Made by a program: the position numbers and the translations under genes
Source of the DNA: an uncultured Alphaproteobacteria bacterium
GTDB taxonomy: Bacteria > Pseudomonadota > Alphaproteobacteria > Rs-D84
Assembly (NCBI GenBank): GCA_944389515.1
Contig: CALXMQ010000005.1
Location: 19,742-83,741, forward strand
Reading direction: 5' to 3'
Length of the DNA stretch: 64,000 nt
Notes under the pieces: generated by a model
Databases searched by the model: none
What the model was told of the DNA's origin: nothing
The model's input: only the letters and a program-made list of their open reading frames with translations
Part shown: in pieces, positions 1,242 through 54,840 of the stretch
Numbering within the stretch: the first letter of the stretch is position 1
Layout of the letters: each line of letters begins with the position of its first letter

Positions 1242-3491
1242 TTATAATATATGTCGTTTATTATTGGCATCTGGTGGACTGACGATGCCTTCGGCCTCCA
1301 TCCGTTCCATGAACCCAGCCGCCTTGTTATACCCAACCCCCAATCGACGTTGTATGTATGATATCGTTGGTTTTTTATCACGTAATACATATTCTTTGGC
1401 CTGGGTGTACAGGTCTGCATCCTTGTCCGCCTTGGTTGGCGCCGCCCCCGGGATACCAGGAATAACACCAACACCGTCCCCGGTATCACCATCTGTTACC
1501 CCTTCGGCATATTCAGGCGTTCCTTGTTCACGCAAGAAATCGCCCACCCTGTTCATTTCATCATCTGATATAAATGCCCCATGTATACGTACCGGCACAC
1601 GGCCAGCTTCGCTGAACAACATATCACCACAAGACAACAACTGTTCAGCGCCTTTTTCGCCCAACGTTGTCAAAGAATCAATCGCACTGCGTGCCTGGAA
1701 CGATACACGCGTTGGGAAATTCGCCTTGATAACGCCGGTAATCACCGTGGTATCTGGACGCTGGGTTGCCATCACTAAATGTATTCCAGCGGCACGTGCC
1801 TTTTGCGCAATGCGTTGAACACATGCTTCAACTTCTTTACGAGCCAAACTCATCAAATCTGCAACTTCGTCGATAATAATTACAATATATGACATATCAG
1901 ATAAATCAACTTCTTGGGTTTCAAATAACAATTCACCTGTTTCTTCATCTGTACCAACCGCCACCTGGCGCGTCAGTTTTTCACCACTTTCGCGCTTTTT
2001 TGTAACAATTTCGTTATAGCTTTCTATATTACGCGCATTGACCAACTGTAACTGCTTGTACCTTTCTTCCATTTCACGCACAGCCCACTTTAACGCATTT
2101 ACCGCCGCCGCCGCATCCAGTTTTACAATCGGTGTTATCAAATGTGGAATATCATCCCAGAAACCAAAATCAACCCCCTTTGGATCGATAATCATCAATT
2201 TACATTTATCAGGCGTAAAATGATACACAATCGACATTATAATTGATTGCACAAACACAGATTTCCCAGACCCCGTGCGCCCAGCAATCAACATATGCGG
2301 CATTTTGGCCAAATCAAAATACATTGGATTTCCACCAATATCAACACCCAACGCCAATGGTATTTTATATTTAGAATTTATAAATGTATCATTATCAACC
2401 AGTGATTGAAAACGCACCGTTTGTCGCGTTATATTTACCATTTCAACACCAATCAGTTGCGTATTTGGAATATGCGCAATACGAATATTTTCTGTTGCCA
2501 TTGCGCGCGTCATATCAGTCACAGTCTTTTTAATATCCACCATACGCACGCCACTTTCCGGCATAAATTCGTACAACGTCACAATCGGTCCCGGTCGAAT
2601 ACCAACAACCTTGCCATGCACACCGTATTCTGCGAAATGCACCTCCATCGCTGCGGCATTACGCTTTAATTCTGGGGTTACAACATTTTTACCAAAATTA
2701 GACCGTTCTAAAAATGCTGGATCTGGCAATTCATATTCATGATTATCACCCACCACCACAGATTTAGCCACTGTTCGCCCTGTACGCCGACGTGCGCGAC
2801 GCACTGGCCGGGATACAGGCTCTTCTTCTACCGCCTCTTCTTCTAATTCATCTTCATCATCAGATTCAACTTCTTCATCTGAATATTGCGCCCCAGGCAC
2901 CAAATGAAACACCGATAAAATCCACCGCACACCACGCCACATCATATGCGCGGCACTTTTTATATGTCCCCATTTAATATGCAATAACATTGCCGCAAAA
3001 ATAAAGAACACACCCAAACACAGTGCCCCAACCAGCATACCCCACACACCAATCCATCCACCCAAATCCGCAGCAGTAATATATCCGATTGCCCCACCAA
3101 ATGTTTCAGACGGCATCAACAAACCAAAACCAGCCGCCCCAACACATACTGCGACAAAACATTTTATAAAATTATATTCTGGTGACGCATTTTCATCCCA
3201 ATTTGCCAACCATGCCAATCCCCATCGCGCAACACATAAAATCAAGAACAATGCCGGGACAAATCCAACACCGTATCGAATAAAACCAACAACCTGCCCC
3301 ATTATTGATTGCGCGCCAAACGTACTGGCCACTGCAAACCCATCTAAATACGGATTAAAAAATACCAATGCATACATTGCCCACAAGGCCAATGCCAACA
3401 ACACCCCACCTGATATCCGCTTTACCAGGTTTTTCAATGCCACAGAAATACTATCCGGTAAAATTTTTGAATTCCTTGCCATGCCATGCAT
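1242..3491 (-). CDS. ftsK: DNA translocase FtsK
   Basis: FtsK pumps DNA at the septum, helps resolve chromosome dimers with XerCD and is part of the divisome. The 749 residues show an N-terminal membrane part with four hydrophobic helices (about 25-190), a short linker with an acidic run (about 205-225) and then an Arg-rich stretch, the FtsK motor with Walker A (AGRTGSGKS), Walker B (YIVIIIDEVADL) and the motif PDTTVITGVIKANFPTR, and a C-terminal winged-helix gamma domain (ISYIQRRLGVGYNKAAG) that reads KOPS sites. The linker is short compared with enterobacterial FtsK. Its partner XerD is encoded at 12171. A second in-frame ATG at 3482 is a possible start; neither has a strong Shine-Dalgarno. 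Confidence 0.96.
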   Translation of the reverse strand: MHGMARNSKILPDSISVALKNLVKRISGGVLLALALWAMYALVFFNPYLDGFAVASTFGAQSIMGQVVGFIRYGVGFVPALFLILCVARWGLAWLANWDENASPEYNFIKCFVAVCVGAAGFGLLMPSETFGGAIGYITAADLGGWIGVWGMLVGALCLGVFFIFAAMLLHIKWGHIKSAAHMMWRGVRWILSVFHLVPGAQYSDEEVESDDEDELEEEAVEEEPVSRPVRRARRRTGRTVAKSVVVGDNHEYELPDPAFLERSNFGKNVVTPELKRNAAAMEVHFAEYGVHGKVVGIRPGPIVTLYEFMPESGVRMVDIKKTVTDMTRAMATENIRIAHIPNTQLIGVEMVNITRQTVRFQSLVDNDTFINSKYKIPLALGVDIGGNPMYFDLAKMPHMLIAGRTGSGKSVFVQSIIMSIVYHFTPDKCKLMIIDPKGVDFGFWDDIPHLITPIVKLDAAAAVNALKWAVREMEERYKQLQLVNARNIESYNEIVTKKRESGEKLTRQVAVGTDEETGELLFETQEVDLSDMSYIVIIIDEVADLMSLARKEVEACVQRIAQKARAAGIHLVMATQRPDTTVITGVIKANFPTRVSFQARSAIDSLTTLGEKGAEQLLSCGDMLFSEAGRVPVRIHGAFISDDEMNRVGDFLREQGTPEYAEGVTDGDTGDGVGVIPGIPGAAPTKADKDADLYTQAKEYVLRDKKPTISYIQRRLGVGYNKAAGFMERMEAEGIVSPPDANNKRHIL

Positions 3492-12042: not shown

Positions 12043-12174
12043 ATGCCACTGCGTAAAAAGAATACTAAACGTAATAAAATAATAATATGGACACTGATTG
12101 CGGTATTAGTGATATTGATGATAATATCATTTCCTGCATCGCAAAATGTAACTGAAATTGTTTTATATCCATGA
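12043..12174 (+). CDS. Small basic membrane protein (43 aa), translationally coupled to xerD
   Basis: A 43-codon frame between lptF/G and xerD encodes a Lys/Arg-rich N-terminus (MPLRKKNTKRNK), one hydrophobic helix (about 13-31) and a short tail. GGGGA lies about 8 nt before the ATG. The stop TGA (12172-12174) overlaps the xerD ATG (12171), the same ATGA coupling seen at the next junction, which supports real translation. The predicted topology is a single-pass inner-membrane protein with the basic end in the cytosol. I recognise no family. Confidence 0.6.
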   Translation: MPLRKKNTKRNKIIIWTLIAVLVILMIISFPASQNVTEIVLYP

Positions 12175-13037
12175 ATTATATAGATGTGTTTTTAGAAGCA
12201 CTGGCCGCAGAACGTGGCCGCAGTCAACGCACTTTGGCCAGTTATGCATGCGATTTACGCCATGCAGATGACAGTATTCCTGGTGGTTTGATGCACGCAA
12301 CATCATCAGATGTCCAGAATTACTTATCGCATCTGGGCGAACGCGCATCATCTGTTGCCCGACACGCCAGTGCCCTGCGTGGATTTTATAAATTTTTAAT
12401 GTTGGAAAAAATAATTTCTGAAAACCCAGCTGCGAATTTAGAATTACCGAAACGCACGCGCCCATTGCCTAAATTCTTATCTGTTGATGAAATTGAATTA
12501 TTGATATCATCGGCTGGCGATACACGCAATTCAATACGACTGCGCGCGATGCTGGAATTGGTGTACGCATCTGGTCTGCGCGTATCAGAATTATGTGAAT
12601 TGCCAATGACGGCAAACCTGGGGGATAAATTACTGATTCATGGCAAAGGTGCCAAAGAAAGAATCGTCCCCATGCACGCCCACGCCGTGGATGCATTAAA
12701 TAAATGGTTGGCGGTACGTGGCAATGACAAATCAAAATACGTATTTCCTGGCAATGGCAAAAGTGGCCACATAACCCGTGACGGATTTTTCAAGATATTA
12801 AAAAAATGCGCTGTATTGTCCGGTATCGACCCCAATCGTGTCAGTCCGCACGTACTGCGCCACTCGTTTGCATCGCACTTGTTGGCTGGTGGTGCAAATT
12901 TACGTGCGATACAAACAATGTTGGGACACGAAGATATATCTACAACACAAATTTATACACATGTTTTACCAGACAAACTGCGTGAAACAGTTGCCACACA
13001 CCATCCGTTGGCGCATATGGGGGAAAATAACCAATGA
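12171..13037 (+). CDS. xerD: Tyrosine recombinase XerD/XerC
   Basis: Xer recombinases resolve chromosome dimers at dif under FtsK control. The 288-residue protein has the N-terminal SAM-like core-binding domain and a full catalytic set: Arg in ASGLRVSELCEL, Lys in GKGAKERIVP, HxxR in HVLRHSFASHLL, His in MLGHEDISTT and the nucleophile Tyr in QIYTHV. The length and the YASGLRVSEL and LGHEDISTTQIYTHV blocks fit XerD better than phage integrases. XerC versus XerD cannot be settled without the partner. Coupled by ATGA overlaps to both neighbours. Confidence 0.9.
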   Translation: MNYIDVFLEALAAERGRSQRTLASYACDLRHADDSIPGGLMHATSSDVQNYLSHLGERASSVARHASALRGFYKFLMLEKIISENPAANLELPKRTRPLPKFLSVDEIELLISSAGDTRNSIRLRAMLELVYASGLRVSELCELPMTANLGDKLLIHGKGAKERIVPMHAHAVDALNKWLAVRGNDKSKYVFPGNGKSGHITRDGFFKILKKCAVLSGIDPNRVSPHVLRHSFASHLLAGGANLRAIQTMLGHEDISTTQIYTHVLPDKLRETVATHHPLAHMGENNQ

Positions 13038-52374: not shown

Positions 52375-53055
52375 ATGAAACGTTCAATATGGTTTTGGCT
52401 ATATTTTATCATAGCAATTATACTGGCGGTATATTTTGCTACGCGCATTGTCATGATTTCAACAGGACGCAGTGAATTATCATATGTACGCCGCATATCA
52501 TTATCCACAGACACCCCGAACAAGGATTTAAGTCAAATTGTAACTGCGGCCGCGGTTGCACCTGGCACACGTGCATCTGGCCAAACATTGACCAATATAA
52601 ATTCACGCATTATGGCAACACCTGGGGTAAAAAATTCCGCCACACGCAGATTACCAGACGGAAATTTATCCATCCATGTTGAACTATACCAGGCGGTCGC
52701 CCAATGGACAGATGGTCAACAATATTATCCTTTGGCCGCAGATGGAACAATCGTAAATCGTCCAACCACAACACGCAGTCCGAATACAATCGTATTTCGT
52801 GGCGATGTTCCAGACGACATATCTGAAATAACACATACTGCACAAAGTATTTCCAATAATTTAGATTATTTGGAATTCATTGAAAACAGGCGTTGGAATT
52901 TACATACAACTGATGGAATTACCGTTATGTTACCTGAACAAAATCCATCATCCGCCATCGCCAGTTTAATTGTATTAAATAAAAATCATCAAATTTTATC
53001 CAAAGATATTGATGTAATAGATATGCGCGATGATGCACGAATATTGGTAAAATAA
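52375..53055 (+). CDS. ftsQ: Cell division protein FtsQ
   Basis: FtsQ is a bitopic divisome protein that recruits FtsB and FtsL. The 226 residues have one N-terminal membrane helix (about 5-28) and a POTRA-type periplasmic domain: ITATPGVKN-like RIMATPGVKNSATRRLPDGNLSIHVELYQAVAQW, then PLAADGTIV and the beta domain ending DIDVIDMRDDARILVK. The sequence is divergent but the order of blocks fits, and ftsA follows 9 bp downstream as in the dcw cluster. Other dcw genes are missing here. Confidence 0.8.
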   Translation: MKRSIWFWLYFIIAIILAVYFATRIVMISTGRSELSYVRRISLSTDTPNKDLSQIVTAAAVAPGTRASGQTLTNINSRIMATPGVKNSATRRLPDGNLSIHVELYQAVAQWTDGQQYYPLAADGTIVNRPTTTRSPNTIVFRGDVPDDISEITHTAQSISNNLDYLEFIENRRWNLHTTDGITVMLPEQNPSSAIASLIVLNKNHQILSKDIDVIDMRDDARILVK

Positions 53056-53064
53056 AAAAACAAA

Positions 53065-54840
53065 ATGAACCTGGCGGATTCATCTTTTTTATGCCTTGAT
53101 ATTGGAACCAGTGGCGTACGTGGTATTGCCCATCGTGTTCGTAACGGAAAAATTGCAAAATCTGCTACATATTCTGTGGACAGTTTTGATACCGTTTTCG
53201 CATTAAAATCTGTAATTGATGAATTAGAACACCAAATTGGCGATCATTTTGACAATGCGTATATAACTGGAAATCTGGGGCCTGCGTTATTCAAAATCAG
53301 CCCTAAAATAAAAAAATGGCGTGGCGAACATAAAATAACCCAATCCGACATTGGATCTATGATTGGGCAAATAACACCACCTGATGGTTTTTATCCGATA
53401 CATATAATACCGTTACGATACGAAACACCAAACATACCAAAATTATATACCCCGATTGGATACACAGATGTTGGATTGACGGCAATATTTGGTGCAATAT
53501 TTTATTCATACGAACAACTGGAAAAATTGACATCAATACTACACGACGCCCACATCCAACCGAATTCTTTTTATGATGCGCAATTCCTGCAAAACATAAA
53601 ATATCATCAGCAAAAAAATGCCGAATTATATATTGATTTTGGTGCTGAATTTACCAGTATTTCAATATGGCTTGATAACGGTCCAATATTCTTTCAAAAG
53701 ATTCCATTTGGTGGCACAGACATTTCACGCGACATATCAGAAAAATTAAATATCAGTTTTGATGATGCCGAACGAATAAAACGCAATGTGGCCAGTTTAA
53801 TGCCCAAAGATATGGACAGATTTACACCTGCGGATACCGCATACGATTTTTCACGCGCAGATATAAATAATATCTTGGTTCCAAACATGATTGATTTATG
53901 CGGCCGAATCAAAGATGCATGCACCACCCCGTTCAAACATCGCACACCAAACAAAATTATTATTTCTGGTGGTGGCGCAGAAATTAATTTTATTGGCGAC
54001 TTTATTGAAAACATGTTTGGAATACCTGTGGAAAACGTTCATGCAAATGCATCTGTGGATGCATTATCTGAACACATATGGAACGCAGAACTGCCACACC
54101 GTAATGCATATGTTGCCCGTCATCAACGTATAACAAATATATTTTCACATATAACGTCTGTATTAAAGCCGCGACAAAAAAAACAACAAATTAAATTTAT
54201 ACCAATTATGCCCAGCACATTGTGCTTTGACATGAAAAACGCATCAACATATTCAATGTTTCGCGCAGGCGGCATATCAATGATTCATGTGGACATAATG
54301 GACGGTTTGTATGTCGAAAATATTCGCGGCAGCATACCTGAATTAAAATATATCCGTGGCCATACAACGGCCCATCTGCACGTGCATTTAATGACAGAAA
54401 GTCCTGATGTATGGGCGTCTGACGCCATTGCTGCTGGGGCAAATACAATAATTGTATCAACAAACACATCTGGGGTTCGGGCGGCATTACGCATGATACG
54501 CGCCGCCGGCCGACGTGCAGGTATTGCATTAAACCCTGATTCATCCATTGAAATATTAAAACCAATATTACGTGAAATTGACGAAGTTATGATTATGGCG
54601 GTTACCCCGGGTGCATCTGGCCAAGAATTTAATGACGCGTGCCTGCATAAAATTTCTGTATTGGCGGCAACACGTAAAAAATATGGATTAAAATATTTAA
54701 TATCTGTGGATGGTGGAATAAACGAACAAACCGCCCAAAAATGTTGGGCCGCCGGCGCAGATTTATTAGTCAGCGGATCATATCTGGCACACAGTGCTGA
54801 TTTCCCATTGGCAGTTCAAAGTTTATTACGCAAAAAATAA
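53065..54840 (+). CDS. FtsA-ribulose-phosphate 3-epimerase fusion protein
   Basis: One 591-codon frame joins two known proteins. Residues 1 to about 350 are FtsA, the actin-like membrane tether of FtsZ: LDIGTSGVRGIAHR, a 1C domain (about 85-170), the phosphate loop IDFGAEFTSISIW, FGGTDISRDIS...AERIK and ISGGGAEINFIGDF. Residues 354-377 (RITNIFSHITSVLKP...) look like the FtsA amphipathic helix. Residues 378-591 are Rpe, which interconverts ribulose- and xylulose-5-phosphate. The metal and acid/base residues are kept: His408 and Asp410 (HVDIMDG), His441 (HVHLM) and Asp549 (VDGGIN), with VTPGASGQ. There is no internal stop or visible frameshift. Confidence 0.85.
   Translation: MNLADSSFLCLDIGTSGVRGIAHRVRNGKIAKSATYSVDSFDTVFALKSVIDELEHQIGDHFDNAYITGNLGPALFKISPKIKKWRGEHKITQSDIGSMIGQITPPDGFYPIHIIPLRYETPNIPKLYTPIGYTDVGLTAIFGAIFYSYEQLEKLTSILHDAHIQPNSFYDAQFLQNIKYHQQKNAELYIDFGAEFTSISIWLDNGPIFFQKIPFGGTDISRDISEKLNISFDDAERIKRNVASLMPKDMDRFTPADTAYDFSRADINNILVPNMIDLCGRIKDACTTPFKHRTPNKIIISGGGAEINFIGDFIENMFGIPVENVHANASVDALSEHIWNAELPHRNAYVARHQRITNIFSHITSVLKPRQKKQQIKFIPIMPSTLCFDMKNASTYSMFRAGGISMIHVDIMDGLYVENIRGSIPELKYIRGHTTAHLHVHLMTESPDVWASDAIAAGANTIIVSTNTSGVRAALRMIRAAGRRAGIALNPDSSIEILKPILREIDEVMIMAVTPGASGQEFNDACLHKISVLAATRKKYGLKYLISVDGGINEQTAQKCWAAGADLLVSGSYLAHSADFPLAVQSLLRKK

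Follow-up and report, generated by a model that had tools for sequence, protein, structure and literature searches.

We found that, in a 64,000-nucleotide stretch of alphaproteobacterial DNA (the window), one uninterrupted gene encodes an FtsA-type domain followed by a ribulose-phosphate 3-epimerase (Rpe), and that no FtsZ is detectable in the bacterial family that carries it, whose members live in the gut and have small genomes. Comparison with relatives confirmed that the fusion is real. FtsA is known as the actin-like membrane tether of FtsZ; on balance, we lean towards the view that the fusion protein is an FtsZ-independent, membrane-attached division scaffold that would keep the epimerase of the cell tied to its inner membrane. 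The features on which this view is built are the following (window coordinates).

1242..3491, minus strand: FtsK-type DNA translocase (best NCBIfam match FtsK, 385.2 bits, the cut-off of 1566 not being reached)
52375..53055, plus strand: ftsQ, 9 nt upstream of the fusion (PF03799, 44.2 bits, cut-off 21)
53065..54840, plus strand: FtsA-Rpe fusion gene, 591 aa, a single open frame
53065..54084, plus strand: FtsA-type actin-fold domain, residues 1-340
53803..53868, plus strand: residues 247-268 in the 2B region, a stretch specific to the family and the peak of conservation within the FtsA half
54124..54165, plus strand: predicted amphipathic basic helix, membrane-targeting-like and internal, residues 354-367
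54166..54195, plus strand: flexible linker, residues 368-377 (pLDDT <50 at 368-375)
54196..54837, plus strand: Rpe barrel, residues 378-591

The fusion is present throughout the Rs-D84 family

The window genome belongs to the genus Candidatus Enterousia, in the family and order Rs-D84 (PMC12306168). A search of 59 genomes around it returned a full-length, stop-free fusion in 33 of the 34 from the same genus, the single miss being a genome that is 70% complete. The first-pass annotation had read ftsA and rpe as one frame without a stop and had named a hidden stop or frameshift near the junction as what would refute that reading; no such interruption was seen in the relatives, and the single frame stands. 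The same domain order, which it had proposed to look for in related genomes, recurs widely: within a 152-genome draw of the order, 129 of 134 family genomes have a frame of 569-617 aa that contains an Rpe match. Four of the other five lack an Rpe match (in one of them, G163, the FtsA half is cut by a contig end), and the match of the fifth (G145) was not listed. The fusion was also present in every one of 18 loci taken from nine further genera of the family, and a protein search, which gives no taxonomy, found both Pfam domains in all of the best 120 of 776 matches. In 129 of 131 fusion loci, only some of which were scanned for ftsQ, the fusion is immediately preceded by a frame of 180-300 aa on the same strand.

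Residue conservation was read from an alignment of 106 rows, made up of 105 fusions and the window protein, itself one of the 105. Median dN/dS over 11 close pairs was 0.064 for the FtsA half, 0.13 for the linker and 0.042 for the Rpe half, ratios that are rough because dS is near 1 in these pairs; they indicate that purifying selection is acting on both halves of the fusion. A promoter scan gave nothing above chance (12 found against 15.0 expected), and a terminator scan gave no usable terminator at the ftsA/rpe junction.

The first half is a divergent FtsA-type domain

The window protein passes the Pfam FtsA model (52.5 bits, gathering cut-off 31.8); of five divergent members of the family that were also scanned, three stay under this cut-off (28.9, 21.7 and 25.4 bits). 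On the NCBIfam ftsA equivalog the window protein scores 68.1 bits, within a range of 68-70 for the FtsA half, well under the cut-off of 175.85; five true MreB proteins score barely less (59.4-65 bits), so that 68.1 bits alone is no proof of FtsA. When the single sequence was searched against solved structures, the best actin-type match of this half was PilM, with FtsA behind. With a family profile FtsA came out on top (E 6.4e-16), ahead of PilM (4.5e-9) and MreB (2.8e-8), and a profile-profile comparison with FtsA of the order aligned 312 columns at a probability of 99.9%. Fold comparison shows an FtsA-type actin fold and prefers FtsA for the first half. The gene starts 9 nt after ftsQ, and ftsA likewise follows ftsQ in relatives. 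Judged by profiles and gene order, the first half is a divergent FtsA-type domain, orthologous by position, and not a confirmed FtsA equivalog.

Among the nucleotide-site residues, D12 and D191 are each found in 102 of 106 rows and G302 in all 106. One genus, g20 (L138, L143, L146, L150), has lost both aspartates (D12 to Y; D191 to N or H) and kept the Rpe ligands; its FtsA half is possibly a non-ATPase FtsA.

Residues 247-268 have a mean top-residue frequency of 0.79, higher than in the other parts of the FtsA half (0.45-0.69) and higher than the Rpe average (0.76). They adjoin a 10-residue gap in the 2B region relative to FtsA of the order. In E. coli FtsA, the 2B region is described as the binding site of the FtsZ tail (PMC9098913, available in part). 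As a sign of lost FtsZ binding the gap is suggestive only, and residues 247-268 may serve a new partner.

A predicted amphipathic helix lies inside the protein

The first-pass annotation had also predicted that the membrane-targeting helix of FtsA would be internal, which the structure model bears out. The model places a helix at residues 343-367, and an amphipathic basic segment sits after the FtsA fold, as in FtsA, yet inside the protein and not at its C-terminus. The hydrophobic moment of residues 355-368 (the window of the script) is 0.63, compared with 0.58-0.77 at the FtsA C-termini of the order. Across the alignment, the linker is at least 14 aa long in 104 of 106 rows, with a mean best hydrophobic moment of 0.64, a net charge of about +3 and a mean z of 1.95 for the moment against shuffles of the same letters. 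It is the least conserved region of the fusion (0.44), though its amphipathicity is kept. One genus (L152, L153) is without an amphipathic linker. Taken with the aspartate loss in g20, this implies that neither ATP use nor membrane binding is required family-wide.

The second half is a complete epimerase barrel

The Rpe half forms a complete barrel with 36% identity to 2fli and lies above the NF004076 cut-off; on the TIGR01163 equivalog it reaches 159.6 bits, below the cut-off of 212.6. All 106 rows have H408, H441 and D549, and 105 have D410; we take H408, D410, H441 and D549 to be the metal-ligand His/Asp/His/Asp set of Rpe. Sequence and model thus agree with the earlier description of FtsA followed by a whole Rpe barrel with its key residues. 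No other Rpe was found in the window genome, where a separate rpe had been proposed as something to look for, so the fusion is its sole Rpe. We also considered an internal start that would yield a separate Rpe. This idea is unsupported: the candidate M382 is Met in 58 of 106 rows, and the window sequence has no clear ribosome site ahead of it.

A second, stand-alone Rpe is carried by 7 of the 129 fused genomes. We rejected these copies as remnants of the original rpe, since four of them form a separate tree branch. Two in Enterousia (L155 2864-3517 and L156 2977-3654) lie among nucleotidyltransferase, phosphomannose-isomerase-like and transferase-like genes. In these two loci, which were read with their neighbours, the neighbourhood is of polysaccharide type, and the second Rpe perhaps serves cell-surface sugar. 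A candidate second, independent rpe fusion, an apparent ABC-Rpe protein in G048 (L154, 874-aa frame), was rejected as a chance open frame: its first 660 residues match nothing and overlie, out of phase, the real frame of an ABC-type gene.

Searches of the family found no FtsZ

TIGR00065 found FtsZ in none of 35 genus genomes, the window genome included, and in every one of the 18 searched genomes that belong to the order and not to the Rs-D84 family (two of them below the cut-off). PF00091 found it in none of 113 family genomes, of which 98 are at least 90% complete and one is a single contig. A profile built from nine FtsZ proteins of the order gave no credible match in the same 113 genomes. 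It returned two chance-level matches (E 0.05 and 0.08, 10-12 bits), the best of which has 11.5 bits over 37 positions and spans two stop codons. In a sample of the class at least 90% complete, TIGR00065 found FtsZ in 281 of 289 genomes, and the eight negatives comprise three members of the Rs-D84 family and five others. With no FtsZ detectable, the family appears to have lost FtsZ while retaining FtsA. The first-pass annotation had tethered the epimerase at the Z-ring; this detail is not borne out, because the absence of FtsZ from the window genome, from 35 of 35 genus genomes and from 113 of 113 family genomes leaves no canonical Z-ring for the fusion protein to sit on.

The five other negatives (G186, G348, G351, G357, G423) have MreB and no FtsA match; the single PF14450 match in each is MreB, above the MreB cut-offs. 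Two of them are single-contig genomes, and three are in 100-450 contigs, where absence may reflect assembly gaps. The alphaproteobacterial single contigs G348 and G423, each of about 1.5 Mb, have MreB and neither an FtsZ nor an FtsA match, which may reflect true loss or a stretch missing from the sequence. In another family of the order, genome G038 has a 408-aa frame (L134 919-2145, minus strand) that scores 31.2 bits on TIGR00065 and is recognised by no tubulin Pfam model. Its single PF14450 match is MreB-sized (353 aa), it has no Rpe match, and it may be a second case of FtsZ decay.

The fusion probably arose once from neighbouring genes

Elsewhere in the order, four genomes belonging to three further families have ftsA and rpe as separate, adjacent genes. 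Three of the four pairs overlap, by TAATG in L117 and L118 and by ATGA in L119, and in L116 a short gap separates the genes. Six loci of another family have an extra gene between ftsA and rpe; in the two that were scanned (L120, L122; the same family as G048) it is an ABC transporter. At the 3' ends of ftsA (L117 1709-1731, L118 and L119) the codons of the C-terminal helix contain AAGGAG or AGGAG beside the rpe start. These motifs may be a ribosome site, so that the stretch would double as helix code.

In a tree of Rpe domains, those of 26 fusions group on a single branch, apart from 12 Rpes of the order and the 4 extra Rpes (support 100/99). The simplest path, as far as sequence comparison can tell, is a single fusion in the family ancestor: where ftsA and rpe overlapped, their stop and start would have been lost, leaving one frame. 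After fusion, the start and ribosome site of rpe itself are gone. The first-pass annotation had left a choice between a tie of division to sugar-phosphate metabolism, to which we return below, and mere co-expression. As a full explanation, co-expression by itself seems weak: in other families, where the genes are unfused, overlapping stop and start codons already couple rpe to ftsA.

Other division and metabolic genes remain

Two or three SEDS matches were found in 30 of 35 genus genomes and one in the other five; all 35 have at least two transpeptidase matches. In the window genome, a penicillin-binding transpeptidase adjoins a SEDS gene, an arrangement that suggests PBP2-RodA. The other transpeptidase/SEDS pair is taken as FtsI and FtsW, by elimination and not by classification. 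Of the 35 genus genomes, 32 have a transketolase; G012 and G013 (97% and 91% complete) have no transketolase match and do have the fusion. Enterousia has been described as having reduced genomes with MreB, RodA and MrdA and a largely complete non-oxidative pentose phosphate pathway; neither FtsZ nor the fusion is mentioned there (PMC12306168). Elsewhere in the window (12171-13037, plus strand) lies a tyrosine recombinase in which both integrase domains are present, and after it comes a DnaJ-domain protein.

Proposed role and alternatives

In the scaffold model that we prefer, the internal amphipathic helix is predicted to lie on the inner membrane, so that both domains would be on the cytoplasmic side. 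Without FtsZ, the FtsA domain would assemble into a filament or cluster on the membrane, or become part of one, contact FtsQ, SEDS synthases, transpeptidases and FtsK, and so gather the septal synthases. The Rpe barrel would be the sole Rpe activity of the window genome and would feed the non-oxidative pentose phosphate pathway. Rpe enzymes are usually oligomeric, and Rpe oligomers may help to cluster the scaffold. The fusion may have been fixed by chance, by protein stabilisation or by this clustering of FtsA through Rpe oligomers. Counting against the scaffold are the low NCBIfam ftsA score, the lead of PilM in the single-sequence search, and the genera without the nucleotide-site aspartates or without the amphipathic linker. 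In addition, FtsZ loss and fusion share one branch as a single event, so that the link between them may be chance. We put forward only tentatively a stronger version, in which FtsA-Rpe is the central cytoskeletal scaffold, FtsA self-polymerises on the membrane, the family-specific 2B stretch turns the former FtsZ-docking face over to a new partner and Rpe acts as an oligomerising, possibly flux-sensing module.

It is conceivable, if rather doubtful, that the FtsA half has left division and is kept to help an essential Rpe to fold or to anchor it to the membrane. The loss of FtsZ, the main known partner of FtsA, would fit this, as would the low score on the ftsA model and the fact that one genus has lost the nucleotide-site aspartates and a second genus the helix. 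However, an FtsA half serving as a mere anchor is hard to square with a dN/dS close to that of Rpe, with nucleotide-site residues retained in 102 of 106 rows, with a 2B stretch more conserved than the average Rpe residue, and with a gene that has remained beside ftsQ.

The metabolic tie suggested in the first-pass annotation, whereby the state of Rpe or pentose-phosphate flux would control division through the attached FtsA, strikes us as unlikely. It draws on the covalent link and on the retained catalytic residues of both halves, but we found no regulatory site or conserved interdomain contact in the fusion, the relative placement of the halves in the structure model is unreliable (pTM 0.61), and no region is less conserved than the linker. 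We give still less credence to an FtsZ too divergent for our searches, with the fusion as an ordinary Z-ring tether plus an extra domain. The weak match in G038 illustrates that FtsZ can decay beyond easy sight, but three models fail in the family (TIGR00065 in 35 of 35 genomes, PF00091 in 113 of 113 and the nine-FtsZ profile in 113), and TIGR00065 missed three of three family members in the class sample in which it found 281 of 289. A misassembly or missed frameshift joining two genes can be dismissed: although all sequences are metagenome assemblies, going by their record titles, 105 distinct fusions come from many studies and hosts and dN/dS is low through the junction.

Comparison with known systems

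The Rs-D84 family thus retains FtsA and a septal-type gene set though no FtsZ was found, and its FtsA is joined to a central-carbon enzyme. If the family divides with the fusion, it offers a natural test of FtsA function without FtsZ and of the idea that the division machine can take in a metabolic enzyme. On a more modest reading, a fixed fusion replaces the ordinary rpe family-wide and shows overlapping genes fusing in reduced genomes. The full-text literature that we searched, with few subscription journals and preprints covered, contained no report of an FtsA/ribulose-phosphate 3-epimerase fusion, of FtsZ loss in Rs-D84 or of Enterousia cell division.

Bacteria without FtsZ include Chlamydia, Planctomycetes, some Wolbachia and endosymbionts, in which, as here, MreB, SEDS synthases and FtsK-like proteins can persist (PMC10591338, PMC4164004, PMC12283558, each available in part). 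According to the accessible portions of these sources, ftsA is usually lost with ftsZ: both counts are 0 in Chlamydia and in Wolbachia supergroup J (PMC10591338), and the PVC group has few exceptions for ftsA (PMC12283558). FtsA without FtsZ is, on the latter account, rare and not unheard of. In contrast to those bacteria, the Rs-D84 family keeps FtsA and has it fused to an enzyme, and the same portions mention no enzyme fusion.

The fusion differs from FtsA in that its helix is internal with an enzyme after it, its family has no detectable FtsZ partner, its score is far under the NCBIfam ftsA cut-off and 10 residues are missing from its 2B region. Like Rpe, it has the whole barrel, the key residues and a score above the NF004076 cut-off; unlike Rpe, the barrel is not free-standing, being tied to a predicted membrane helix, and it falls below the TIGR01163 cut-off. 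The fusion is made of known domains in a new architecture and in an FtsZ-less setting.
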